Positions 31,975-45,540 of a stretch of DNA of 64,000 nt are shown here, piece by piece. A model generated the notes under the pieces. The model did no database searches and was not told where the DNA came from. It saw nothing but the letters and a program-made list of their open reading frames with translations. The position numbers and the translations under genes are program-made. Numbering within the stretch: position 1 is the stretch's first letter; the number at the start of each line of letters is the position of its first letter. This stretch comes from Candidatus Brocadia sinica JPN1 (GTDB lineage Bacteria; Planctomycetota; Brocadiia; Brocadiales; Brocadiaceae), in NCBI RefSeq assembly GCF_000949635.1, contig NZ_BAFN01000001.1, positions 3,655,052-3,719,051 on the forward strand, given 5' to 3'.

Positions 31975-32256
31975 GTGCAGGGGGTGGAGCATTTTGCCGA
32001 AAACCCGAAATCGAAATGTTCGCATTGTTTTGCCGAAGAGAAGCCCGATACAGTCGATAATCTTATGGAAAATGCAATGAATCAGGTCAATCTCGATCCA
32101 TATATAGAGCAAGTTAAAAATCTGGTCAATCAGGTTGATATTCTAGAAGAATTGCGGGATAAACTGTTAGATATCTATGGCGGCATTGATCCTGTTGAGC
32201 TTGGCAGTCTCATGCAAAAGGCATTTACCGTAGCGGGTCTTGCAGGCAGGTATGCA
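31975..32256 (+). pseudogene. Mu-like portal protein (DUF935/gp29) C-terminal fragment
   Basis: The frame reads HCFAEEKPDTVDNLMENAM, then VDILEELRDKLLDIYGG and LMQKAFTVAGLAGRYAV. This helical segment ending in LAGR is like the C-terminus of DUF935 portal proteins of Mu-like phages. The N-terminal portion is absent. The frame is cut at a family A palindrome (32257), beyond which a different head gene begins in another frame. Confidence 0.6.
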
Positions 32257-32284
32257 GTAGGGACACGGAGCACCGTGTCCCTAC
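32257..32284. repeat. family A palindrome, copy 3 (at a deletion junction)
   Basis: 28 bp, GTAGGGACACGG / CCGTGTCCCTAC around AGCA. Twelve base pairs are perfectly inverted. It lies exactly between the portal fragment and the MuF fragment, which are in different frames. Confidence 0.85.
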
Positions 32285-33307
32285 AATCTTTCGAAAGACA
32301 TTTGATGAAACCGTAGCAAGGAATGGCTGGAGCTACAAAGGAGAACGCGGCTGGCGAACAGGAGTAATTTTCAACACGAATATGCGCGTTGCCTATGCGG
32401 CAGGGAATTATCAACAGATGATGGCCGTCGGGGGTGAAAGGCCCTACTGGCGGTATGTCGGCGGACTATCGGAAACGCCAAGGCCTTTGCACTTGAAGTG
32501 GAGCGGTACGGTATTGCCTGCCGATGACCCTTGGTGGAATACTCATTATCCTCCCAACGATTGGGGTTGCAAATGTGAAGTAGTAAGCCAAACGCAAGAA
32601 GAGATTGATAGCCTGAGAAAGGAAGGGATGAAGATATCTACTGAGCGGCCAGATGACGGCGCCTATCAATGGGCGGATAAAAATGGCAATACCCATACAA
32701 TCCCTAATGGCATAGGCCCCGGCTGGGCATATAATCCCGGCAAGACCGCGTGGGGTGAAACATTGTCAGAAGATGTAATGGACACGTGGAGGACACAGGG
32801 TGCAAAGGCATGGGAAAGACTTACCCCTGGGGATTGGGAATCGTATGGTAGTCCTGAAAAAGTTCCCCTTCATGCGCCAGTGGCCTCTCTGGATTATACA
32901 ATATCAAAAACGATAGAAGGTATGGAATTGGCTACTGAAAAGATATTAGGATGCCCGGAAAAGGTCTTTTCCTTTCAGTCTGGCGAATTCAGGTATGACA
33001 CCCTGGTTAATGCAAAGACGTTAGCTCGTCACATCGATCCGAACGTGCTCCGTATATCCCATTCATTACAGAAACAATGACTGACCCATACGAAGTATGG
33101 CTCTCGTTTGAGCGACACAAAGGGACAGATCAGGTAGTATTAAGACAGAGGATTATTAAGGCAATTCAAACGGGAAAAAAGGAAGGAATCTTAATTGTGG
33201 CGAATGTCATTAAAGGCTTTATGGAGTCATGGACATTTGTCCCAATTGAAGAATTGGGTTATTTGGATAAGCAGCGGGTAGGAAAACTGATATGGAAAAA
33301 AAATTAA
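32285..33307 (+). pseudogene. Mu gpF/MuF head morphogenesis protein with C-terminal PBECR-like domain (truncated, frameshifted)
   Basis: From 32285 one frame reads IFRKTFDETVARNGWSYKG, ERGWRTGVIFNTNMRVAYA, and NDWGCKCEV, the second half of phage MuF minor head proteins. It ends at 33080 (LARHIDPN...). Another frame continues PYIPFITETMTDPYEVWLS, then FERHKGTDQVVLRQRI and QRVGKLIWKKN to 33307, the PBECR nuclease-like tail usual in such proteins. So the first half is deleted and one frameshift lies near 33040. A dead prophage remnant. Confidence 0.8.
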
Positions 33308-33478: not shown

Positions 33479-33553
<75 letters not shown>

Positions 33554-33857
33554 ATAGAAATGAGTATAGTTTGCCACAGACGGCGCTGATGGCAAAGAGA
33601 AATTTTAAAGAACAACAAATTAACGATTTTCGGTTCAGCTTTAAATTAGAAATCGCAAGCTGAAAATCACAAGTTCATCTGTTTTCTCTGTGTTCCTTGC
33701 GCCCTTTGCGGTGAATTAAGTTTCCATTATATATCCCATATTCCAAATTGCAAACCAATTCTTCGTGTGAAAGTTTAGCTGAATTACAGCTATTTACTGT
33801 TAAAATTCCCTTTGGGGTTGACATACAGAAAGACCTCTGCTAATCTAATTCACACAT
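33554..33857. other. spacer with a dispersed CTCTGTGTTCC..GCGGTGAA motif and a promoter
   Basis: CTGTGTTCCTTGCGCCCTTT then GCGGTGAA at 33688-33716 resembles TCTGGGTTCTCCGCGACCTC then AGCGGTGAAC at 48244-48273. The promoter at 33818 is listed separately. Confidence 0.4.
33818..33846 (+). promoter_or_regulatory. strong sigma-70 promoter
   Basis: TTGACA, 17-nt spacer, TAATCT. The expected start point (about 33853) is only some five nucleotides before the ATG at 33858. Confidence 0.65.
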
Positions 33858-35219: not shown

Positions 35220-35238
35220 GAAATACCGGGATAGTGTT
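35220..35238. other. attachment site, left (att core)
   Basis: GAAATACCGGGATAGTGTT. Read on the minus strand it is followed by codons GTG GAT AAG CCG TAA, which would complete speE as ...HYPGISVDKP before integration. Confidence 0.85.
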
Positions 35239-35374
35239 TTCTCTGGCTTTTTGATGTGTTTTACTGTATTTTGCTTACTTTAGCTATTCTTTGTTTTTCC
35301 CGGCAAATTCAAGGGTTCCCAAGACTTTTTATCTTTGGTTTGTTTTGACCTGTTTTGATAGGCTTTTATCAATA

Positions 35375-35392
35375 GGTACGGTCAAAAGTACG
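35375..35392. promoter_or_regulatory. candidate arm-type integrase sites (left)
   Basis: GGTACG and AGTACG starting 12 nt apart, about 140 bp inside the left att core. The right end has the same pair at 44527-44543. Confidence 0.45.
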
Positions 35393-35422
35393 GCTATTTT
35401 TTTATAGCAGAGAGGGCATAAT

Positions 35423-35695
35423 ATGCGCATAATCATCGCAATCGAATGCAAAGGTGACGAACCAGAAACAGAGCTTTCCCGTGTGCTGAATGAAGTTGCG
35501 GAGAAGATATCCGGGGAAGATTTAACACCAGGGGAATACCTGTTAAAAGAGGACAACGGAGACGTAACCGGCAAGATGTTCATTGAGGATACCGAGGGAT
35601 TCCTGACGGATGAGGGTTATAAGGCACTTGCAAATACAATAAAAAAGCAGAGACAGCATTACGCATCAGAATTGCCTATCTCAGACGAATTATAA
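35423..35695 (+). CDS. hypothetical satellite protein
   Basis: 90 residues, acidic, no Cys beyond one, predicted mixed alpha/beta: MRIIIAIECKGDEPETELSR, then GEYLLKEDNGDVTGKMFIED. No family recognised. It is the first gene of the element, alone before a terminator at 35734. Confidence 0.7.
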   Translation: MRIIIAIECKGDEPETELSRVLNEVAEKISGEDLTPGEYLLKEDNGDVTGKMFIEDTEGFLTDEGYKALANTIKKQRQHYASELPISDEL

Positions 35696-35733
35696 CGGCC
35701 TGCCATAAAAGTAAATCAGATATCAAGGCATTT

Positions 35734-35777
35734 AAGGGCTGGATTATCGCATAACAAGCGGTATTCCAGCCTTTTTT
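35734..35777 (+). terminator. intrinsic terminator
   Basis: AAGGGCTGGA ... TCCAGCC then TTTTTT, 40 bp after the stop of the preceding gene. Confidence 0.85.
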
Positions 35778-35906
35778 GTTTGAATATTCCCAAGTATTTC
35801 CGCAACAAAATTCCACACAAACGAAATTTACAAAAACACCACATATCCGCTAAGCCAGTAAATACAGGGGTTTCAAGGCATTTCAAGTTTTGTTTACAAC
35901 AACGGA

Positions 35907-35934
35907 TTGACATTTTAAAACAACATGATAATCT
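35907..35934 (+). promoter_or_regulatory. candidate promoter of the replication operon
   Basis: TTGACA, 16-nt spacer, TAATCT. It lies 260 nt before the RHH gene; the leader contains no other gene. Confidence 0.6.
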
Positions 35935-36190
35935 GTTAATTATTGTAATATCTGTGTTGGCGGATCACAGTATAATAAATGGACGCTTTCTTTTTTGGGA
36001 GGAAAATATCTTCAAAATACGATAACGAAATTTTTTAAAATAAAAATTCGATTAACACAGATTTCTTTTGAAAGGGGCGATCTGTGAGAATGAAAATTTT
36101 GTGCCGGGAATAACCCCCGCTGCATCTTTTTCCTTCTTGCAGACTGCCCTTTTTTATTTCTATAACCCACATTTTACTGGAGGTAAAAAC

Positions 36191-36382
36191 ATGAAAACAT
36201 ATCGGCATTTAAACTTCTTAATTGATGGCAATACTTATGATGCTTTGAGGAGACAAAGCAGGAAGCTTGACATGTCCATAAGCCGAATCGCAAGGGAGGC
36301 GATTGCGTCTTTCTTGGAAAACGGGAGATGTTCAAAGTCTTCGAAAGGGCTGGCATTGGGCGGTGAAAACTCTAAGGAGTAG
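36191..36382 (+). CDS. ribbon-helix-helix (CopG/Arc-type) regulator
   Basis: 63 residues from the ATG at 36191, with TGGAGG about 10 nt upstream; an in-frame upstream extension lacks such a site. A short beta strand (HLNFLIDGNTYDALRRQS) and two helices (MSISRIAREAIASFLEN) form the RHH DNA-binding fold, expected to act as a dimer. It precedes the primase by 16 bp and probably represses the replication operon. Lys/Ser-rich C-terminal tail. Confidence 0.75.
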   Translation: MKTYRHLNFLIDGNTYDALRRQSRKLDMSISRIAREAIASFLENGRCSKSSKGLALGGENSKE

Positions 36383-36398
36383 TGCCGGAGGGCGATAA

Positions 36399-38102
36399 AT
36401 GGTGACCACAATAGATTACAAGCAAGACTTAGGTTACGACCTCCTAAAGGCGCTGATTCACGGCGGGCTTCAAAACGGTAAGTTAGATGCTATCCTTTCA
36501 CTCGAACCAGAACGCTTTGATAAGTTTGCACTGCGTGAAATTTTCTTCGAAGCGAAAGATATTTATAAGCAAAATTTACCAATCACTACCGCAACAATTA
36601 TTCATCGGCTAGGGCAACGATTGCAGGGAAGGCCACTGCTTGGAAATATTATCGATATTCTCTTGCTCATGGAATCGGAGCGGGACGAAGCTTGCCTTTT
36701 GGCTGTAAATATCGAAACTTATTTAAAACAATTGAGGGAACCCAAAATTGAAGTTTCTGAAACTGTTCAGGCATTCAATGCGACCGACCTGGGCAACGCA
36801 AGACGGCTGGTTTCGCAACATGCCAATAAAATCCGCTTTTGTTTCGCTTGGAAGAAATGGCTTGTTTGGGATGGTAAAATTTGGCGCATAGATAATGATG
36901 GTAAAATCCTAAGATTGGCAAAGGATACAATTCGATGTCTTTACGAGGAGGCGGGAGAGATTGCGGATAAATACGAAAGACAAACCCTGGCAAAATGGGC
37001 AATAGCGAGCGAAGCAGAAAACAGATTGCGGGCGATGATATCCCTTGCACAAAGTGAACCTAGCGTTCCTATTTCACCCGACCGGTTAGACATAAATCCT
37101 TTCTTTTTAAATTGTCTTAACGGCACAATTGACCTGCGGACTGGACAATTAAAGCCACACGATCCCCAGGACTACATAACCAAGATAATCCCGGTTGAAT
37201 ACACCCCCGATTCGCAATGCTCTTTATGGATTGAATTTCTCGAAACTATTTTCAATTGGAATTATGACCTAATCCAGTATGTCCAACGAGCGGTTGGATA
37301 TTCATTGACCGGGGATGTTACTGAACAATGTCTTTTTCTTTTACATGGAACAGGTAGCAATGGCAAAAGTACCCTCCTGAGTTGTTTGTCCATGTTACTT
37401 GGCGATTATGCCCAAACTGCTGATTTTGAAACTTTTCTTATTCGAAAAAGCGAAACTGTTCGTAATGATCTGGCAAGGATGACAGGCAAACGTTTTATTT
37501 CTGCTATCGAAGTAGAGGGCGAGCGGCGATTGGCTGAGGTGTTGGTCAAGCAGTTAACTGGTGGCGACACTATCACAGCAAGATTCCTTTTCGGTGAATA
37601 TTTTGATTTTAAACCCACTTTCAAGATATGGCTGGCGGCGAATCATAAACCTAACATCAAAGGGACGGATTATGCGATCTGGCGGCGTATTAAGTTAATT
37701 CCGTTTAATGTCACTATTTCCGAAGACAAAAAGGATCAGAAGCTTTTGGAAAAATTGAAGGCTGAAATGTCCGGGATGCTTACTTGGGCTGTCCAGGGCT
37801 GCCTCCAGTGGCAAAAGAATGGACTGCAAACACCGGATGATGTGAGTCGGGCTACAAATAATTACAAAGCTGAAATGGATGCGATAGGGGCATTTCTTTC
37901 TGAATGTTGTGTCCTCATACCTGATGCTAAGGTTCCGGCGGGAAAATTATATGAAACATATAAAAGGTGGTGTGAACAATCTGGGGAGTATATTTTAAGC
38001 CAAAGAAGTTTTGGAACCCGGTTATCGGAGAGAGGTTTTGAACGAAAACAATCAAGCGGCCATTGGTGGAAGGGAATCGGTATTTGTGAAAGTACCCTTT
38101 AG
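36399..38102 (+). CDS. phage/plasmid primase-helicase, D5/P4 family
   Basis: 567 residues. The N-terminal about 110 residues are helical (DLLKALIHGGLQNGKLDAIL) and similar in pattern to DnaB N-terminal domains. A D5_N-like region follows (FCFAWKKWLVWDGKIWR), then an SF3 helicase core: Walker A HGTGSNGKSTLL (about 307-318), Walker B-like ISAIEVEGERRLAE, sensor WLAANHKPNIKG and the arginine WRRIKLIPF. The AEP primase domain is not visible. It would unwind the element origin. Downstream lies the symmetric AGTACC array that partly overlaps its 3' end. Confidence 0.9.
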   Translation: MVTTIDYKQDLGYDLLKALIHGGLQNGKLDAILSLEPERFDKFALREIFFEAKDIYKQNLPITTATIIHRLGQRLQGRPLLGNIIDILLLMESERDEACLLAVNIETYLKQLREPKIEVSETVQAFNATDLGNARRLVSQHANKIRFCFAWKKWLVWDGKIWRIDNDGKILRLAKDTIRCLYEEAGEIADKYERQTLAKWAIASEAENRLRAMISLAQSEPSVPISPDRLDINPFFLNCLNGTIDLRTGQLKPHDPQDYITKIIPVEYTPDSQCSLWIEFLETIFNWNYDLIQYVQRAVGYSLTGDVTEQCLFLLHGTGSNGKSTLLSCLSMLLGDYAQTADFETFLIRKSETVRNDLARMTGKRFISAIEVEGERRLAEVLVKQLTGGDTITARFLFGEYFDFKPTFKIWLAANHKPNIKGTDYAIWRRIKLIPFNVTISEDKKDQKLLEKLKAEMSGMLTWAVQGCLQWQKNGLQTPDDVSRATNNYKAEMDAIGAFLSECCVLIPDAKVPAGKLYETYKRWCEQSGEYILSQRSFGTRLSERGFERKQSSGHWWKGIGICESTL

Positions 38103-38195
38103 TACCGATAGTACCCTTCTTTCCGGAAACTTTTTTATATTCTATCTCATATAGGACTTTCCAGAATAAAGGGTACTAATCGGTACTTCGGTACT
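38091..38195. repeat. symmetric iteron-like array AGTACC x3 / GGTACT x3
   Basis: AGTACC at 38091, 38101 and 38110, then the inverse GGTACT at 38172, 38182 and 38190. Spacings are 8-10 bp on each side of an AT-rich 56-bp centre. The first copy overlaps the end of the helicase gene. Layout fits a replication origin or operator for the element. Confidence 0.7.
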
Positions 38196-38237
38196 AAATC
38201 TTTTTGATATGTTTCGATTTCTTTCGATTTTCTCAAA

Positions 38238-38705
38238 ATGATAAAAAAATCAGATTTGGTCATTATCCAAGATACGAGGGAACAAACCCCTTTGGTGTTT
38301 AAAAATGCAACAGTGGAGGTTGTTGGACTATCCACCGGGGACTATAGTTTGAAAAATTTCACGGATAAAGTGACCATAGAACGGAAAAGTCTTTCTGATT
38401 TGTTAGGATCGCTTGGGGTTGGCCGTGAACGTTTTATGAATGAGGTACAGCGCATGAGGGCCTTCGATTATGCAGCTATTGTCATTGAGACGTCACTTTC
38501 AGACATCTATAAGGGTAAATGGCGAAGCGAAATGACGGTGGCATCGGTTGTCGGAAGCTTACAGGCACTAAGCGCAAAATACGGGGTGCATATACTTTTT
38601 GCGGACAATCCGACTATAGCAGCGGATACAGTTGAAGGGCTTTTGTATCATTTTCTACGGAAGCAGCACGAGTATTTAGAACGAATAAAACCTTATTTGG
38701 TTTAA
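38238..38705 (+). CDS. ERCC4-family nuclease
   Basis: 155 residues. XPF/ERCC4-type nuclease core: IQDTREQTPLVF, STGDYSLKNF, then VTIERKSLSDLLGSL, giving the GDxnERKxxxD active-site pattern. It cuts branched or flapped DNA in this family. No clear ribosome site before the ATG. In a mobile element it may process replication or integration intermediates. Confidence 0.88.
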   Translation: MIKKSDLVIIQDTREQTPLVFKNATVEVVGLSTGDYSLKNFTDKVTIERKSLSDLLGSLGVGRERFMNEVQRMRAFDYAAIVIETSLSDIYKGKWRSEMTVASVVGSLQALSAKYGVHILFADNPTIAADTVEGLLYHFLRKQHEYLERIKPYLV

Positions 38706-38811
38706 TTCTTAATTCTTTAGATTTTGAAAACCGAAAAGGCGTATGAAATAGTTTACGAATTTTTTACGGGTTTAACTTTTATCAGTCTTTTTTTTATGGA
38801 GGGTTTAAAAA

Positions 38812-39369
38812 ATGAGAAATAATATTGAGGTTGCGGTAGGAGCGTATAGGTCGGCACAGGGGGAGATTGAACAGTCATTAAGAAAACAACGAGAGCTAAT
38901 CAAACGGCTGGACGATGCCAGGGAAGGCCTCCCCAAGCTGGAGCGGGCTTGCGAATCGGTTAGGCATGAGCGTGAGAAGATTGCAGATAAATTTGTCCTG
39001 GGTGAATGTACTGAGCTGGAATTTCAAGAGGCTGGTGAAAAGCTCGAAAAGGCCGAGAAATCCCTTGCAGATGGCCGGGTAATACATGATGCACTAACCA
39101 GGCAAGTTAAGGCGCTGGAAACTGATTTGCCTAAAAGATACACAGAACTTGACCTTTTGCAACGTCAATGCTGGGAACAAATTTCTTTGCAATTCGAGAG
39201 CAAAATTACCGGTGGGGTCAGGGAGACCATAAGAACCATAGTTGCAATCGGCTGTCAGATCGGACGGACACGACAATTTATCTTGGATTGCCTGTTTCCG
39301 AATCCCAGCAGCGGTGAAACCCAGCAAATTCAAGGGGAGTTGCGTGAGGAATACAGTTTGAACGATTAA
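38812..39369 (+). CDS. hypothetical coiled-coil protein
   Basis: 185 residues. Residues 10-130 are coiled coil (EQSLRKQRELIKRLDDAREG, EAGEKLEKAEKSLADGR). The end is mixed and ends SLND. GGAGGG is 8 nt upstream of the start. No family recognised; similar coiled-coil proteins of unknown role are frequent in small phage elements. Confidence 0.75.
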   Translation: MRNNIEVAVGAYRSAQGEIEQSLRKQRELIKRLDDAREGLPKLERACESVRHEREKIADKFVLGECTELEFQEAGEKLEKAEKSLADGRVIHDALTRQVKALETDLPKRYTELDLLQRQCWEQISLQFESKITGGVRETIRTIVAIGCQIGRTRQFILDCLFPNPSSGETQQIQGELREEYSLND

Positions 39370-39393
39370 TCGGCTACCTCCAGGCCGATTCCT

Positions 39394-39434
39394 GGCATGG
39401 GGTGTTTCCGTGATAGCATCCCATGCCTTTCTTT
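39394..39434 (+). terminator. hairpin/terminator
   Basis: GGCATGGG ... CCCATGCC followed by TTTCTTT. A smaller hairpin AATCGGC/GCCGATT precedes it at 39367-39389. Confidence 0.6.
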
Positions 39435-39459
39435 AAACATTTTTTACGAAAGGATAGTT

Positions 39460-39966
39460 ATGGAAAACACGAAAAAATGCCCATTAAATTTGGACGGCTT
39501 CCGACATTTTTGCCCAGATGATCGGAATGGACACCCGAGCTTAGAGGAAATCAAAACGAATCTTGAGAGGCGATCCGATTTGTACGAGTGCAACGACCTT
39601 CCGGCACATTTGCAGCGAGAGAAGGAGTTACTCCAATTTATCAGGACAGGCGAAAGGCCTAAGCGAATTGAAACAAAGTCTGAAGTGGTTACTCAGACTC
39701 CGAAAGTTGAACCTGCTCCGGTTCCGGCGATTTCACTTGCACAGCAAAAGGCAATGGACGACCTTGCAAGGCTGAAAGCGGGTGTCCCGTTCAGTAGGAG
39801 TTATACTCCACAGGCCACAACCGAAAGGATTGAACCACAGTCTTTGAGTTTCGAGGAAAGCTTAATCGCAAATTGGAAAAATGACACAGCATTGCAAAGA
39901 GAATTTACAAGCTTTAACGCTTATGCTGCATATATGCGGGCAGAAGCAGGGTCGTCGGCGGGGTAG
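39460..39966 (+). CDS. hypothetical satellite protein
   Basis: 168 residues from the ATG at 39460 (CGAAAGGA upstream); a longer frame from 39397 would cover the preceding hairpin. N-terminus LDGFRHFCPDDRNGHPSLEE; the middle is Pro-rich (VTQTPKVEPAPVPAISLAQ) and probably flexible. No known domain. It precedes a long inverted repeat and the terminase-like gene. Confidence 0.65.
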   Translation: MENTKKCPLNLDGFRHFCPDDRNGHPSLEEIKTNLERRSDLYECNDLPAHLQREKELLQFIRTGERPKRIETKSEVVTQTPKVEPAPVPAISLAQQKAMDDLARLKAGVPFSRSYTPQATTERIEPQSLSFEESLIANWKNDTALQREFTSFNAYAAYMRAEAGSSAG

Positions 39967-39968
39967 CT

Positions 39969-40044
39969 GTGAAATAGGCCGTGACCTCCTGGCCTGGCCG
40001 TTCACGGCTTCGTCACTCATCATATAGCGGCCAGGCTACTTCAC
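39969..40044. repeat. long imperfect inverted repeat before the terminase-like gene
   Basis: Outer arms GTGAAATAG / CTACTTCAC, inner arms GCCTGGCCG (39992) / CGGCCAGGC (40028), with GCCGTGA / TCACGGC inside. Strong folding potential and position suggest a transcription stop or a packaging-type site. Confidence 0.55.
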
Positions 40045-40177
40045 ATGAAAAAGGAAGTGTGTAATAAGTTGTTGCGGGGCAAAGGTTAAGGTACTCCCAG
40101 AAAGCGTTTTTGTACGGGGGCAAGACGACCGCAGAATTTTCGCAGTCTCAGAAAAATTTTCGGGGGTTGTTATAAAC

Positions 40178-40660
40178 ATGGGAAAATTAACATCAAATGA
40201 AGTTTGTAAGGCTTTTTCGATCAGCAAAACCACTCTTACCAATTGGATAAACCGGGGGTGTCCGCATGAGCAAACCGCAAAAGGTAAGCTTTTTGTTTTG
40301 GCCGAGGTTATCAAGTGGCATCAGGAGAAATTTTTAAAAACTGAGAGCAGCGACACGGAAGGCCTTACGAAAGCAAGAGCGATGAAAGAGCACTTCCGGG
40401 CATTGTTGGCTGAACTGGAATTTAAGGAAAAAAATGGTGAGCTTGTACCGGTCGAGGCGGTCAGGAAGCAAGCTTTTGAAACGGCACGCATGGTCAGGGA
40501 TTCGCTCTTGAATATTCCTAATAGAGTTAGTCCAATCCTTGCAGCCGAAAGCGATCACAGGGAGATCAATCAAATTCTTACGAAGGAAATTACGCAGTGC
40601 CTTGAATCATTATGCAGCGAATTAAATCAATCGGGGGTGACGAATGGCGAGAAAAATTGA
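40178..40660 (+). CDS. terminase small subunit-like protein (Nu1 type)
   Basis: 160 residues. The N-terminal winged HTH (LTSNEVCKAFSISKTTLTNW, GCPHEQTAKGK, FVLAEVIKWHQEK) is like lambda Nu1. The second part, RAMKEHFRALLAELEFKEKN, GELVPVEAVRKQAFETARMV and a C-terminal helix, matches Nu1-like small terminase arrangement. Such subunits recognise the packaging site; in PICI satellites they redirect a helper phage's large terminase. No large subunit is encoded here. Confidence 0.75.
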   Translation: MGKLTSNEVCKAFSISKTTLTNWINRGCPHEQTAKGKLFVLAEVIKWHQEKFLKTESSDTEGLTKARAMKEHFRALLAELEFKEKNGELVPVEAVRKQAFETARMVRDSLLNIPNRVSPILAAESDHREINQILTKEITQCLESLCSELNQSGVTNGEKN

Positions 40661-40853
40661 CCTGAGCGAGTTATCAGAAAAAATGGGAGTCAGCCGATAC
40701 TTAATTGAGGACTGGATTCAGTTGGGTTTACCACATAAGAGAACCAGCCGGGGTTATAGATTTGATTTCGACCAAGTGGTCGAATGGCATGATTCTCATG
40801 TCAAACGAATAATTGGAACGGAGGGAAAAGATGATAAAACCACCACAAAATGA
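40644..40853 (+). CDS. small HTH protein (Nu1/MerR-like fold)
   Basis: 69 residues: IDLSELSEKMGVSRYLIEDW, IQLGLPHKRTSRGYRFD and a helix ending in VVEWHDSHVKRI. It repeats the winged-helix unit seen at the N-terminus of the preceding protein (WIxxGxPHxxTxxG), so it may be a partner or duplicate of it. Overlaps the preceding gene by 17 bp and the next by 23 bp. Confidence 0.75.
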   Translation: MARKIDLSELSEKMGVSRYLIEDWIQLGLPHKRTSRGYRFDFDQVVEWHDSHVKRIIGTEGKDDKTTTK

Positions 40854-40986
40854 AACACAGGAATTAATCGACCAATATTTGCGGTATACAAGCTTACTTT
40901 TAAAAATCAAGGTATTGCTTATGGATGTTGCCAGGGTGAAAGATGAAATTAATCGAATAGAAGGGGGTGGGCAATGCCAGAATTAA
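40831..40986 (+). CDS. small hypothetical protein
   Basis: 51 codons: MIKPPQNETQELIDQYLRYT, then a helix LLLKIKVLLMDVARVKDEIN and a GGG-rich end. GGAGGG is 8 nt before the ATG. It overlaps both neighbours, which supports coupled translation in a packed operon. Not a known family. Confidence 0.5.
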   Translation: MIKPPQNETQELIDQYLRYTSLLLKIKVLLMDVARVKDEINRIEGGGQCQN

Positions 40987-41156
40987 AATTGTTGGGTATG
41001 GATGAAGCATCCAGTCTTTTGGGCATCAAGAAGTCAACCCTTTACGATATGGTCATGAGACGGGTAATTCCGGTAGTAAAAATTGGTAAGTTAAATAGGT
41101 TTAAATTATCCGACCTGGAAGTATTTATTGATCGGAACCGGCAGGAGGCGGTTTAG
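40974..41156 (+). CDS. excisionase-family HTH protein
   Basis: 60 residues: LLGMDEASSLLGIKKSTLYDM, then IPVVKIGKLNRFKLSDLEVF and a short tail. This is the HTH_17/excisionase pattern (helix-turn-helix plus a wing RFKxSDLExF). It could be the directionality factor for the integrase or an AlpA-like activator. AGGGGGTGG lies just upstream. Confidence 0.85.
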   Translation: MPELKLLGMDEASSLLGIKKSTLYDMVMRRVIPVVKIGKLNRFKLSDLEVFIDRNRQEAV

Positions 41157-41321
41157 TTTTTCTAAAAGGCATGCCACAATCGTATAGTTTCGCCTTCTAA
41201 AAACGTTTCGGAATGTCTTCAACGTAGTCTAGGTCGATGAAGGTAATCGGAATGTGAAATTTATTGTTTCTTGATATGTTTTTGGAGCAAGGAATTGAAA
41301 ATTTTAATATAGGGATATCAA

Positions 41322-41639
41322 ATGAAGAGATTAGTAAATAGAAAATCTTTATTAAGTGAGGAAGAAAAAGATGTTTTTAGTGTAATGATCAGTTACGACC
41401 GTAGATTATCCAAAGCCAAAGAATCAAAGTATAAGCCTGTAAAAACACATTCATCGATAATTCAACATGCGAGGATGACAGCATTCAAAGAAGTAGAAGC
41501 CAGTCAGTGCGAAGTATGCGGTAAGAGTGATGGCAAGATGCATAGACATCATCATAATTACCTTAAATACAAAGATGTGATAATTTTATGCTCAAGTTGC
41601 CATCGTAAAATTCATAGCTTTGATCCTATTGGATGGTAA
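41322..41639 (+). CDS. HNH-like zinc-binding protein
   Basis: 105 residues. The C-terminal half has CEVCGKSDGKMHRHHHNYLK and CSSCHRKIHSF: two CxxC pairs and a His-rich centre, as in phage HNH endonucleases, which often sit next to terminase genes and help cleavage at packaging sites. N-terminus charged and helical. Activity is inferred from motif only. Confidence 0.75.
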   Translation: MKRLVNRKSLLSEEEKDVFSVMISYDRRLSKAKESKYKPVKTHSSIIQHARMTAFKEVEASQCEVCGKSDGKMHRHHHNYLKYKDVIILCSSCHRKIHSFDPIGW

Positions 41640-41661
41640 ATTTTAAAGGAAGGGGGTAAGT

Positions 41662-41892
41662 GTGAATTTGGGATTAAAAACATATCATGAGAAAATTAAA
41701 GCTGGATTGATCGAAAGATCATTCAGACAAAAAAGACCTTCCATGAAAAAGGCAATCCTGGCAAAGTGCAAAGACTGTATGTGTGATTATATTGACGGTA
41801 GGCTGGATTGTGAAATCGAAGATTGTAGTCTTTATTTTTGGATGCCATACGGTAAGTTGAGAAAAAAAGATAAATGCCTGGAAACTGTCTAA
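41662..41892 (+). CDS. Cys-rich small phage-type protein
   Basis: 76 residues with KCKDCMCDYIDGRLDCEIED, then CSLYFWMPYGK. Five or six Cys suggest a metal-binding knuckle. Similar short proteins (CxxCxCxYxxGxxDC) occur in many phages without known function. Overlaps the methylase by 19 bp; GTG/ATG choice near 41662 follows AAGGAAGGGGG. Confidence 0.65.
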   Translation: MNLGLKTYHEKIKAGLIERSFRQKRPSMKKAILAKCKDCMCDYIDGRLDCEIEDCSLYFWMPYGKLRKKDKCLETV

Positions 41893-42698
41893 AAAGTCCA
41901 ATTTGCCGTATAGGTGGTAAAAGTTTTCTGGCGGGCTGGCTATCCGAGAAGATTCCTGAGCATACTTGCTACGTTGAACCTTTTTGCGGGGCTGGACATT
42001 TACTCTTTAGCAAGACACCTTCCCGGGTGGAAATAGTCAGCGATATTGACGGCCATTTGATAAACTTTTTTCGTGTTCTTCAGTATCCTGGAAAGAGACG
42101 GTATCTCACACAATTGCTTAATGGTATGCTTTATTCCCGTGAGGTATGGTTTATTTTAAGGCAGCGGTGGAAAGCTGGCGATATCCCATCAGGAAGGGCG
42201 GAGCGAGCGGCACAGTGGTTTTACCTGAACAGGACATGCTTTTCAGGTGACCAGGTAAGGGGTGGCTTTGCTGTACCTTCTACCACTGGCAGGAATCCAG
42301 TAATGAGTTTTAGGAACTCTATCGATGGACTGAACGCTATTGCAGAACGTCTCAGAAACGTTTGTATTGAGTCCTTAGATTATGCCGAATGTATCAAGCG
42401 ATACGATTCAAAAGACACCTTATTCTATTGCGATCCTCCCTATCTGAATGCAGAACATTATTACAGCAAGGATTCCTTTGGCCATGACGATCATTATAAA
42501 CTTGCAGAGCTACTTCACGGCATAAAGGGTAAGGCCATGATCTCACATTATCAGAACGGCCTATACGATGAATTGTATAAGGGCTGGTGCCGGCATGAAT
42601 ATTCAAGCTTCAAGGGTAGCCATAAATCAACAGGGGAATCAAAGCCAAAGACTGTGGAATGCCTTTGGACGAATTTTGAACGGGAGTTTAACCGATGA
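41874..42698 (+). CDS. D12-class N6-adenine DNA methyltransferase
   Basis: 274 residues. Motif X/I region RIGGKSFLAGWLSEKIP and YVEPFCGAGHLLFSK, catalytic motif IV FYCDPPYLN, and HDDHYKLAELLHGIKG. These are typical of Dam/M.FokI-like D12 enzymes. No cognate restriction gene is present, so it is a solitary methylase, possibly protecting the element from host restriction or controlling expression. Confidence 0.92.
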   Translation: MPGNCLKSPICRIGGKSFLAGWLSEKIPEHTCYVEPFCGAGHLLFSKTPSRVEIVSDIDGHLINFFRVLQYPGKRRYLTQLLNGMLYSREVWFILRQRWKAGDIPSGRAERAAQWFYLNRTCFSGDQVRGGFAVPSTTGRNPVMSFRNSIDGLNAIAERLRNVCIESLDYAECIKRYDSKDTLFYCDPPYLNAEHYYSKDSFGHDDHYKLAELLHGIKGKAMISHYQNGLYDELYKGWCRHEYSSFKGSHKSTGESKPKTVECLWTNFEREFNR

Positions 42699-42790
42699 AC
42701 TATTTCAATGATTTTTTATTTTGGATAATAGGCTTTGAGATAACCAGAGCAATATGCTGGATGATCTGGACGGGGTTACAGTGGCACTAA
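42695..42790 (+). CDS. possible 31-residue hydrophobic peptide
   Basis: Starts with ATG overlapping the methylase stop by 4 bp: MNYFNDFLFWIIGFEITRAI then CWMIWTGLQWH. Aromatic and hydrophobic, may insert in membranes. Its stop overlaps tail-to-tail with the minus-strand peptide. Confidence 0.35.
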   Translation: MNYFNDFLFWIIGFEITRAICWMIWTGLQWH

Positions 42791-42888
42791 TGTGTATGTT
42801 TAGAATGTTTCTGGCTATATAATGTCCACGCAAGACCAATCAGGCCAATAACTGAAATTATTATAAAAAGTATAGCAAGGTTACTCAT
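42787..42888 (-). CDS. 33-residue single-span membrane peptide
   Basis: MSNLAILFIIISVIGLIGLA then a short polar tail YSQKHSKHTH. Its ATG overlaps the end of the upstream small gene by 8 bp, which indicates translational coupling. Function unknown. Confidence 0.5.
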   Translation of the reverse strand: MSNLAILFIIISVIGLIGLAWTLYSQKHSKHTH

Positions 42889-43072
42889 TTTGTATATTCC
42901 TTTCCAGGCTATATGCCCAAAAGAAAACTATTAATGTTGCTATAATGCCAGAGACAATAACAGGGATGTCTAATTTTTCTTTTACAAAATTTCCAACAAC
43001 AGTAAGAAGGGCAATCCCCTTACTAATATCATACAAATATTTGGCTGTGCTTTCTCTCTGTTTCTTAGTCAT
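42881..43072 (-). CDS. small membrane protein (DUF6722-like)
   Basis: 63 residues with two helices: KYLYDISKGIALLTVVGNFV and IPVIVSGIIATLIVFFWAYS. The YLYDISKxxxxxxVVGNF pattern resembles DUF6722 proteins of unknown function found near mobile elements. Divergent from the integrase and sharing its promoter region. Confidence 0.65.
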   Translation of the reverse strand: MTKKQRESTAKYLYDISKGIALLTVVGNFVKEKLDIPVIVSGIIATLIVFFWAYSLERNIQNE

Positions 43073-43138
43073 GCGTTTTGTAACATAATACCAATTTCAC
43101 CAAAACACGTCAAAAGAAAAAGGAATAGATAAAAACAC

Positions 43139-43167
43139 TTGACAATATCTTAAAGATACGATAAACG
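43139..43167 (+). promoter_or_regulatory. integrase promoter with embedded palindromic operator
   Basis: TTGACA, 17-nt spacer, TAAACG. The spacer contains the perfect palindrome TATCTTAAAGATA (43146-43158), a good operator candidate for an element regulator. Confidence 0.6.
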
Positions 43168-43222
43168 TACTTCTGTTGGTTTAGTTTCGTTGTGTTCGGT
43201 TAAGTTAAGTTTTGTTTGTGGC

Positions 43223-43325
43223 GTTGGTCAGGACGCTTGAATAATTTTGCTCCTGGGGTAGACTTCAGGAGCAAAACGAAGGCAACGGCTGTGGGGCTGA
43301 CCACCTATGGCTTGTTGCCTTTTTT
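43223..43325 (+). ncRNA. structured leader with terminator before the integrase
   Basis: Hairpin TTTTGCTCCTG / CAGGAGCAAAA (43245-43255 with 43266-43276), then AAGGCAAC (43279) / GTTGCC (43314) followed by TTTTTT, an intrinsic terminator 20 nt before the gene. GGTCAG at 43226 can also pair with CTGACC at 43297, competing with an inner GTGG/CCAC stem. Looks like an attenuator. Confidence 0.55.
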
Positions 43326-43346
43326 ATTTGAAAAGGACGGTGAATA

Positions 43347-44522
43347 ATGGCGGTAAGGTGGAAAAAGTATTATCCGGACAAGTGCAAAATTCAGGATGCC
43401 GAGGGTAAAGAAATTTCCTGTGATGGTAAGCGTGAGGATTATTGTCCAACGGATTTGCCTATAAAGAAAAACGGAGATATTCCGAAGTGTGGGCGGTGGT
43501 TGATAGAATTGTTTGATGATAGAAAACGGTGGGTGTCAGTTAGCTTCAGGGACGTTAGAAGTCGGAAGGATGCTATGAAAAGGTTAATGGTGCTTGTCGG
43601 TGATAGGGAGCGGGGCAAACTGCAATTGCCAAAAAAAAAGGTCATTCCTGCCCTTGCAGAGTATTCCGGGAGATACCTGGAACTACACAAAGGGGCGAAG
43701 GAAAATACCCTATGCGCAAAGAAAGTATGTGTAAATAATCTTTTAAGGTATTTGGGTAATTACCAGCTGGATAAGATTACATCATTCATTGTTGAGAGGT
43801 TTAGGATTGAACGCAAAGAGAAAGACCAGGTGAAGGACAGCACAATCAACGATGATGTCAAATTTTTAAGTCATATCTTTACTGTAGCCATGAAAGAGGG
43901 CATCGTTGATAAGAACCCATGCAAAGAGGTTAAGCGTTTAAAGGTGGCACAGACCAAAGACAGGGTATTGAGTCCCGAAGAAATTAAGCTGATACTTGAA
44001 TTACCACAAGACAAAGACCGCATGATGATTCTAACGGCATTGTTCACCGGGATGAGGTTAAACGAGGTATTAGGCTTAAGATGGAACGATGTTGACTTTG
44101 CCAGGGACTTGATAACATTTACCCAAAGCAAGACCGGCAAACTCATAGCTGTACCACTGTCAGAATATCTAAGGGGAGAGCTACAGGGTTACAGGGGTAA
44201 CGATGCTGCGGATAGAATCTTTGAAACCAGAGACATAACAAAGGCCGTTGGTAGGAAGTACAGCGAACACTTTAGCCATTTGTTTAAGGGCTTAGGGATT
44301 CATAATTTCACATTCCACAACCTGAGACATACCTTTTCGAGCTTGCAGGCAGAGCTAGGAACCGGGGCTGTAGTCACCAAAGACCTCTTAGGGCACTCTA
44401 CTTTGGCTATGACCTTGCGTTATTCGCATACTAACCTTGACAGCAAGAAGAAGGCTATTCAGGTATTAACGGACCATGTTCTGAGTATGAATAATAATGC
44501 AGATTTGGCCGTAGCACAGTAA
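43347..44522 (+). CDS. int: tyrosine recombinase / integrase of the element
   Basis: 391 residues. N-terminal arm-binding part (Cys-rich start KYYPDKCKIQDAEGKE), SAM-like core-binding domain (about 90-190), catalytic domain with Arg in LFTGMRLNEVLGLRW, HNLRHTF (His-x-x-Arg), LGHSTLAMTLRYSH with the Tyr nucleophile. It catalyses integration at the 19-bp speE core. Right at the edge of the element, next to attR, as usual. Confidence 0.95.
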   Translation: MAVRWKKYYPDKCKIQDAEGKEISCDGKREDYCPTDLPIKKNGDIPKCGRWLIELFDDRKRWVSVSFRDVRSRKDAMKRLMVLVGDRERGKLQLPKKKVIPALAEYSGRYLELHKGAKENTLCAKKVCVNNLLRYLGNYQLDKITSFIVERFRIERKEKDQVKDSTINDDVKFLSHIFTVAMKEGIVDKNPCKEVKRLKVAQTKDRVLSPEEIKLILELPQDKDRMMILTALFTGMRLNEVLGLRWNDVDFARDLITFTQSKTGKLIAVPLSEYLRGELQGYRGNDAADRIFETRDITKAVGRKYSEHFSHLFKGLGIHNFTFHNLRHTFSSLQAELGTGAVVTKDLLGHSTLAMTLRYSHTNLDSKKKAIQVLTDHVLSMNNNADLAVAQ

Positions 44523-44526
44523 CAAA

Positions 44527-44543
44527 GGTACGACAGGAGTACG
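44527..44543. promoter_or_regulatory. candidate arm-type integrase sites (right)
   Basis: GGTACG and AGTACG starting 11 nt apart, in the same orientation and order as the left pair, 60-75 bp inside the right att core. Confidence 0.45.
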
Positions 44544-44580
44544 ACATAAGAAAGGCATGTGTTCTGTAACTATGCGTAAT

Positions 44581-45540
44581 TTAAAGGTTTGTGGATTCTG
44601 TGGAAATACCGGGATAGTGTTCTTTCAGCGGATCTTTATCCCGTATTACATGCTTTTGTTTTTGGATGTCTGCCCGTAAATACTTTGGCAGATTAAAGAG
44701 TGAATGATGTGTAATACTATCGTAAAAACGAAGCTCGCTGGCAATCCTTGAATTGATCCTTGCATCAATTTCTTCACCCGTGATATCAAGATTGGATGGG
44801 TTGTGTGTTGCCATGGAAAATCCCCACTGAAGTGCATAAGAAGGAATATAGGTAACGTAGGGGAATACATGCGGAAACACCTTACTTAATGTATTGCAAA
44901 TGCAAGTAAATGCATCGTTCTCTGAAATAGAAGCTGCACCAGATTGCACGATAAGTATTCCATCCTTTTTCAGCCTTTCTGCAACAAGCTGATAAAATTC
45001 CAGGGTAAAAAGCATATATGATGGTCCACTCTCTAACGGGTCATTCACATCTACGATAACCACATCAAATCTATCCTGTATCCGTTCCAGATATTTTCTG
45101 CCGTCTTCAATAACGAGTTCCACACGCTTGTCATCAAATGAGCCAGCATGAAATGAGGAAAGAAATTTTTTGGAACAATGTATCATTTCCTTATCAATAT
45201 CAACCATTACGGCCTTTTTTACCGTTTGATAGCGAAGCGCCTCCCGCAACGTCGCCCCTTCGCCGCCCCCTAAAATGAGTACGGTTTCTGCTCCCGGATG
45301 TAAAATAAAAGGAGGGTGTACCAGTGCTTCATGGTAAATAAATTCATCAGTTTCCGCTGATTGAAACTCATTGTCGAGGATGAGACATCTTCCGAAATTA
45401 TAGGTATCGACTATGATAATTTTTTGGATCTCTGACTGAACCTGGCATACAACATCCCTGAAGGCATGTTTGTGCAATTCGTAACTGTTAAAATAATCAT
45501 CTATCCAATTTACCGGAGACTTTTCCATACGATTTCTCAC
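44581..45540 (-). CDS. speE: spermidine synthase (polyamine aminopropyltransferase)
   Basis: 319 residues, probably beginning at the second Met (45528, MEKSPVNWIDDYFNSYE). Transfers the aminopropyl group of decarboxylated AdoMet to putrescine. Motifs: LGGGEGATLREALRY, VDIDKEMI, VVIVDVNDPLESGPS (catalytic Asp). The C-terminus HYPGISTESTNL is encoded by the att core and element DNA, so the last six residues come from the integrated element. Five bp after it (transcriptionally before) lies speD. Confidence 0.95.
   Translation of the reverse strand: MRNRMEKSPVNWIDDYFNSYELHKHAFRDVVCQVQSEIQKIIIVDTYNFGRCLILDNEFQSAETDEFIYHEALVHPPFILHPGAETVLILGGGEGATLREALRYQTVKKAVMVDIDKEMIHCSKKFLSSFHAGSFDDKRVELVIEDGRKYLERIQDRFDVVIVDVNDPLESGPSYMLFTLEFYQLVAERLKKDGILIVQSGAASISENDAFTCICNTLSKVFPHVFPYVTYIPSYALQWGFSMATHNPSNLDITGEEIDARINSRIASELRFYDSITHHSLFNLPKYLRADIQKQKHVIRDKDPLKEHYPGISTESTNL
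44603..44621. other. attachment site, right (att core, inside speE)
   Basis: GAAATACCGGGATAGTGTT, identical to 35220-35238. It encodes the HYPGIS residues of SpeE. Confidence 0.85.

Follow-up and report, generated by a model that had tools for sequence, protein, structure and literature searches.

Can a 9.4-kb element with an integrase and a phage-type small terminase (TerS), and no virion genes recognised, live as a phage satellite in an anammox bacterium? The question is raised by a stretch of 64,000 nucleotides from the 4.08-Mb genome of Candidatus Brocadia sinica JPN1 (G000:C1:3655052-3719051, here called the window), in which an earlier note had described such an element and likened it to satellites that hijack helper packaging. 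The element lies between recombined att sites in speE. It brings an integrase and a replication helicase of its own, and of phage packaging or assembly genes it retains just two, coding for TerS and for a scaffold-like protein named X; by homology only, these two proteins are expected to divert the packaging and assembly of a helper. We regard the element as very probably the integrated form of a phage satellite that belongs to a new family, with packaging hijack as proposed below. Its satellite nature is well supported, and capsid redirection by X is a part that we infer by analogy.

Boundaries and attachment site

The integrated element (35220-44621) is bounded by an exact 19-bp direct repeat, GAAATACCGGGATAGTGTT, with copies at 35220-35238 and 44603-44621 and 9.38 kb (9383 bp) between the att repeats; the longest word common to shuffled flanks had a length of 15 in 2000 shuffles. 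The MGMT gene flanks the element on the left and speE on the right, and in the same-genus genome G009 (L048:2495) MGMT adjoins speE with a single copy of the 19-mer, indicating an empty attB. Other elements, of 12.0 and 6.0 kb with 28-bp and 21-bp repeats, occupy the same speE site in G004 and G002, and carry relatives of the window integrase. Both ends are intact, as the earlier note had held, and the boundaries are recombination sites.

All 10 elements with the window integrase type contain pairs of GTACG[AG]C motifs spaced 11-12 bp apart, on the left ~145-175 bp inward of the att and on the right ~75-130 bp short of it. One copy deviates from the motif in some pairs, and the pairs fit integrase arm sites, as expected.

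A packaging module shared by nine elements

A packaging module composed of a coiled-coil protein (CC), X, TerS and small helix-turn-helix (HTH) proteins recurs in the window element and in eight further elements, from two genera. Besides the window element, the same genome (G000) carries L086/L087, L088 and L089, and the others are L090 (G001), L091 (G009), L092 (G008), L093 (G045) and L094 (G048). Measured by flanking repeat, the sizes of the nine elements are 9383, 8542, 8828, 8996, 8206, 8915, 8821, 8692 and 9097 bp. They use three integrase types and at least seven integration sites, which include tRNA-Thr (46-bp repeat), tmRNA in two genomes (28 and 29 bp), tRNA-SeC (29 bp) and speE; the weakest of the nine is L088, with a flanking repeat of only 14 bp. 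X accompanies TerS in all nine, CC was undetected in L089 and L090, and no TerL (large terminase), portal or capsid genes were found in any of them. This recurrence in at least nine att-bounded elements of 8.2-9.4 kb upholds the identification as a phage satellite.

Two other integrase types can carry the module; otherwise it sits on an Int-HTH-Dam(-D5) chassis that is common in the host family and is seen in L046, L047, L052, L053, L054, L055 and L063 (6-12 kb, with 16-34-bp att repeats). The window CC is 100% identical to the CC of the L086 element (G000:C1:2.767 Mb), and the surrounding DNA is 98% identical over 765 bp, so satellites in one cell exchange modules. In L052:7097-17592 (G000:C1 about 3.817-3.828 Mb), a 10.5-kb element with the same chassis, an unrelated TerS (phrog_83, 4.5e-31) and a topoisomerase replace the TerS/X module, which reads as a TerS swap within the family; with L052 included, the host genome has five TerS-bearing elements in total. 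Where it could be computed, the ratio of nonsynonymous to synonymous substitutions (dN/dS) for TerS, X, CC, ERCC4 and Dam is about 0.03-0.5, and these genes are under purifying selection.

A small terminase with a distinct N-terminal domain

The satellite TerS alignment retrieved 44 viral contigs from IMG/VR. TerL lies downstream of TerS in 42 of them, and of the remaining two, one is truncated where the locus ends. Between satellite and phage proteins, identity was 42% over residues 66-145 and 12% over residues 1-50, while the corresponding values were 45% and 30% among phages, and 56% and 45% among satellites. The C-terminal half of the satellite TerS is as conserved with phages as it is among phages, and its N-terminal half is unrelated. 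Lambda gpNu1 uses its N-terminal domain to bind DNA and its C-terminal part to bind gpA. A conserved C-terminal half joined to an unrelated N-terminal half is the pattern expected of a protein that recruits the helper TerL to satellite DNA.

X resembles a scaffold without its protease

A profile built from the nine X proteins was run against 859 ORFs (open reading frames) of the collected loci, and beyond its own family it matched only C-termini of phage head-maturation protease/scaffold proteins. These were the scaffold gene behind the protease in L095, a Brocadiales prophage (2.7e-12), a protein of Pseudomonas phage KT1 that is a protease by phrog_53 (2.8e-12), the L097 protease (7.9e-7) and the annotated head maturation protease of Sinorhizobium phage phi3LM21 (0.002), with the next match at 0.074. 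The profile also matches the last 50-160 residues of the ORFs directly after the portal in L119, L122 and L151, three IMG/VR contigs retrieved by TerS and not by X; the L119 and L122 ORFs had no PHROG match, their annotation resting on position. A tblastn search of X against phage records gave nothing, and the link came via the L095 scaffold and the profile searches.

In the AlphaFold model of X the body is disordered and one helical unit at the C-terminus is confident (residues 131-165; predicted local distance difference test, pLDDT, 91-94, above 90 for most), a predicted arrangement that corresponds to the usual scaffold layout. X looks like a scaffold without a protease, derived from the tail of a phage head-maturation protease, and its signature motif is E..W....EF....Y.AY.KA..GR.KI. 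CpmB of SaPI1 has a C-terminal RIIK motif in common with the 80alpha scaffold and, by binding the capsid protein as that scaffold does, forces small heads (PMC5644958). Rcm of SaPIpT1028 has homology to the helper scaffold and was proposed to act like CpmB in redirecting head size (PMC12409344). By analogy with CpmB and Rcm, X should compete with the helper scaffold.

The AlphaFold2 model of CC is a helical hairpin (mean pLDDT 83), for which the fold search returned only generic coiled coils and no informative match. In a sample of 392 genomes of the phylum, CC gave strong matches in Brocadiaceae-level relatives and nowhere else, and the same family yielded a few weak ones of coiled-coil type; CC was not found in the phages examined.

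Proposed mechanism

Upon infection by a lambda-like helper (Nu1/GpA terminase, S49 protease-scaffold head), the satellite would excise via its integrase and the HTH_17 protein acting as Xis, and would replicate with its D5 helicase. The satellite TerS would bind its own packaging site via the private N-terminal DNA-binding domain, and recruit the helper TerL via the conserved C-terminal half. X, carrying the C-terminal helix of the helper scaffold and no protease, would be expected to bind the capsid protein and to compete with the helper scaffold, altering head assembly and probably producing small heads, with CC as a possible partner of X.

Points against this proposal and alternative explanations

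Several observations weigh against the proposal. The match between X and the scaffolds spans mainly about 45 residues, and against its sisters the window copy of X shows a gap of 13 nt (39947-39966), removing the terminal basic GRAKI residues that are common to the sisters and the phage scaffolds; this copy may be impaired, redirecting heads poorly or not at all. No helper was identified: the earlier note had suggested a search for a helper prophage with a matching large terminase, and the host genome gave no match to GpA, Terminase_6N or TerL_ATPase, the three TerL families searched. Among 2.9 million viral contigs of IMG/VR, no contig of the satellite family was recognised in the integrase and CC scans: the integrase retrieved only distant integrases, and neither CC nor a single-sequence TerS query retrieved any. 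No pac or cos site was located. Lambda-like prophages with TerS-TerL-portal-protease were found in the same order, with L095 in the same family and L096, L098 and L208 elsewhere, and the helper is probably an infecting phage, by analogy with PLE and PICMI.

The alternative that survives best is that the satellite is packaged by TerS alone, as concatemers in normal-sized heads, X merely inhibiting the helper or being inactive. PICMIs manage without capsid remodelling (PMC10803314), and the truncated end of the window X would fit this explanation. However, elements of different integrase types all fall within a narrow 8.2-9.4 kb, which suggests a constraint on size, and X is kept in all nine TerS members with its scaffold motif persisting, and we regard packaging by TerS alone as unlikely, though worth keeping in view.

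Far less probable, and already disfavoured, is a deletion remnant of an ordinary prophage that lost its morphogenesis cassette and retained int, helicase and TerS by chance. Every gene does have prophage homologs, and both the missing end of the window X and the broken integrases of the same-site sisters L046 and L047 would agree with decay. In contrast, the compact layout without TerL, portal and capsid genes is repeated in nine elements of near-equal size on three integrase types, the att ends are intact, no TerL, portal or capsid fragment was found in the scanned ORFs of the element, the genes are under purifying selection, and CC is essentially confined to these elements.

It is just as improbable that this is a non-phage integrative element, perhaps mobilised by conjugation, with the TerS-like protein serving only as a DNA-binding regulator: the chassis is viable without packaging genes, as L046, L047, L053, L055 and L063 have Int and Dam (most also D5) and no recognised TerS, but no relaxase was found among the ORFs scanned, the conserved half of TerS is the one that does not bind DNA, the scaffold-like X accompanies TerS in all nine elements, and an unrelated TerS substitutes for it in L052.

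Gene content of the element

ORFs of the element were scanned with Pfam and PHROGs profiles (Table 1). By these matches, the assignments of the integrase, the HTH_17 protein, the D5 primase-helicase, the ERCC4 nuclease, the D12 methyltransferase and the phrog_57 TerS are certain, that of the HNH endonuclease is likely, and that of the ribbon-helix-helix (RHH) regulator is weak. No match to TerL, portal, capsid, tail or lysis genes was obtained among the scanned ORFs, as the earlier note had said for all of these but the portal. The genes listed there were recovered, with solid profile matches for integrase, Xis, D5 helicase, ERCC4 and small terminase, a moderate one for HNH and only a weak one for RHH; the list had omitted the D12 methyltransferase, X and CC. 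All recognised genes run in the same direction except the DUF6722-like ORF, and int lies at the far right, downstream of TerS and the HTH gene.

Table 1. Features of the satellite element and its attachment site (window coordinates).
Feature	Position	Strand	Evidence and relatives
attL, 19-bp core direct repeat	35220..35238	.	repeat; empty attB in G009
Left integrase arm-type repeat pair, GTACGGT..GTACGGC, 12 bp apart	35376..35394	+	
Small ORF	35423..35695	+	78% relative in sister element L087
Putative Arc-type RHH regulator	36188..36382	+	weak: Pfam RHH_3 0.0059, phrog_3180 0.0041; homologs at same place in sister elements
D5-type primase-helicase, 567 aa	36399..38102	+	Pfam D5_N 4.6e-37, phrog_6088 1.6e-136; 53-71% relatives in sister elements
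ERCC4-type nuclease	38238..38705	+	Pfam ERCC4 8e-13; 85% relative in sister L052; dN/dS about 0.03-0.07
Coiled-coil hairpin protein CC	38812..39369	+	satellite-exclusive (relatives in text)
Terminator-like hairpin between CC and X, 13 pairs	39394..39427	+	
X, protease-less scaffold-like protein	39460..39966	+	C-terminal motif common with phage head-maturation-protease/scaffold C-termini
TerS, Nu1/phrog_57-type small terminase	40178..40660	+	phrog_57 1.1e-30
Free-standing paralogue of TerS DNA-binding domain, possibly a regulator	40644..40853	+	TerS query match 2.2e-6; 86-88% relatives beside TerS in L086 and L090
Small ORF beside TerS	40813..40986	+	35-41% relatives in L086, L088, L091, L092
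AlpA/excisionase-type HTH_17 protein	40974..41156	+	Pfam HTH_17 2.9e-11; relatives in nearly all sister elements
HNH endonuclease	41322..41639	+	moderate: phrog_2340 7.2e-10, Pfam HNH 0.003
Small ORF	41662..41892	+	73% relative in L090
D12 N6-adenine DNA methyltransferase (Dam)	41874..42698	+	Pfam MethyltransfD12 1.1e-29, phrog_56 5.5e-75
Small DUF6722-like membrane protein	42881..43072	-	Pfam DUF6722 9.8e-5, below cut-off; relatives in L047, L052, L054, L093
Tyrosine integrase	43347..44522	+	phrog_1 9e-63, Pfam 2.8e-25
Right integrase arm-type repeat pair, GTACGACA x2, 11 bp apart	44528..44546	+	
Host speE (spermidine synthase), attachment gene	44581..45540	-	
attR, within speE 3' end	44603..44621	.	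repeat; shuffle test

Neighbouring and related elements

The same-site sisters in speE (L046:1345-13372 and L047:1598-7641) have frameshifted integrases, in two frames in L046 and three in L047, and both are decayed copies. L046 also holds a DDE transposase, a DUF3987 helicase and a DUF3854 primase-like gene, and L047 a HicB-like antitoxin. In four other Brocadia genomes (L049, L050, L051 and L060), GATTCTGT was found before the speE core, mostly preceded by TTTGTG and resembling the element at its right end; the vicinity showed no related integrase, and these flanks are possible traces of past or different insertions.

Beside tRNA-Ala (33479-33554), the region 31975-33307 of the window (+ strand) encodes a portal-like protein (phrog_113), a Mu-F-like minor head protein (phrog_220, 5.6e-44) and a PBECR2 nuclease domain. 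The portal and Mu-F fragments were considered as a part of the element and rejected, since both fall outside attL and stem from other phage families; the region is the remnant of a different prophage.

In genome G037, the 14.1-kb L097:3795-17940, located in tRNA-Arg, combines TerS with a full S49 protease-scaffold protein and an integrase, as does L204:9441-12790. No TerL, portal or capsid gene was recognised in either, and they possibly form a second type of satellite, one that takes over the protease-scaffold in full. Metagenome-assembled genomes of Desulfobacterota contain TerS-only elements, L201:4488-14711 (10.2 kb) and L202:66-9794 (9.7 kb), with 45-bp att repeats resembling tRNA 3' ends and, near TerS, a second conserved protein of 230-268 aa (49% identical), which suggests a reach beyond the host phylum.

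Comparison with known satellites and phages

The element appears to work like a PICI, yet its anatomy is not that of the PICI, P4, cf-PICI or PICMI families. The PICI-like hijack named in the earlier note stands as the proposed function; the arrangement of genes typical of a PICI, with int at one end, a pri-rep module and a divergent repressor/alpA or stl/str region, was not found, and neither were the P4, cf-PICI and PICMI markers.

Like SaPI1-type PICIs, the element supplies Int, Xis and a replication protein of its own, carries TerS but not TerL, and has a small protein with the C-terminal capsid-binding motif of a helper scaffold, as in CpmB with RIIK (PMC5644958); its size is also close to their average of about 9.5 kb (PMC10803314). 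Unlike them, it has no divergent stl/str region, its D5 helicase, ERCC4 and Dam replace SaPI genes, it resides in another host phylum, no sequence kinship with SaPI proteins was seen for TerS, X or CC, and X goes back to an S49 head-maturation protease, whose scaffold tail it represents, and not to an 80alpha-type scaffold. SaPIpT1028 provides the parallel of a satellite protein homologous to the helper scaffold, Rcm, that redirects head size (PMC12409344), although the phage type is another and no kinship between Rcm and X was recognised.

P4-like satellites are similar in size (about 10 kb) and in having a D5/P4-type primase-helicase, distantly like alpha, but no Sid, Psu, Delta or epsilon was found in the element with PHROGs and Pfam; P4 uses an external scaffold and no TerS, while X resembles an internal scaffold. 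The cf-PICIs also acquired TerS and head genes from phages, but the element has no capsid gene, and none was recognised in the related L097 either. PICMIs lie next to fis and have no packaging-redirection genes (PMC10803314), whereas this element lies in speE and carries TerS. The lambda-like phages of the same order (L095, L096, L098) have the TerS family and the scaffold C-terminus in common with the element, but encode TerL, portal and protease next to TerS.

Significance

The satellite families on record were drawn from a limited range of bacteria. No report of satellites with anammox or Planctomycetes was found in the open literature, a search that did not cover the main cross-bacterial satellite survey, so priority is not proven. 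With somewhat less assurance than for the satellite nature of the element, we think it probable that this is the first satellite family in Planctomycetota and anammox bacteria, and that it hijacks lambda-like phages with two matched adaptors, a domain-swapped TerS and a protease-less scaffold decoy, the latter being a further origin of scaffold competition besides CpmB and Rcm. The family illustrates how a satellite may be assembled around these two proteins. TerS beside a short protein with the X signature motif, and without TerL, offers a signature for finding satellites in uncultured phyla. The family also implies that anammox bacteria, organisms employed in wastewater treatment, are under pressure from lambda-like phages.

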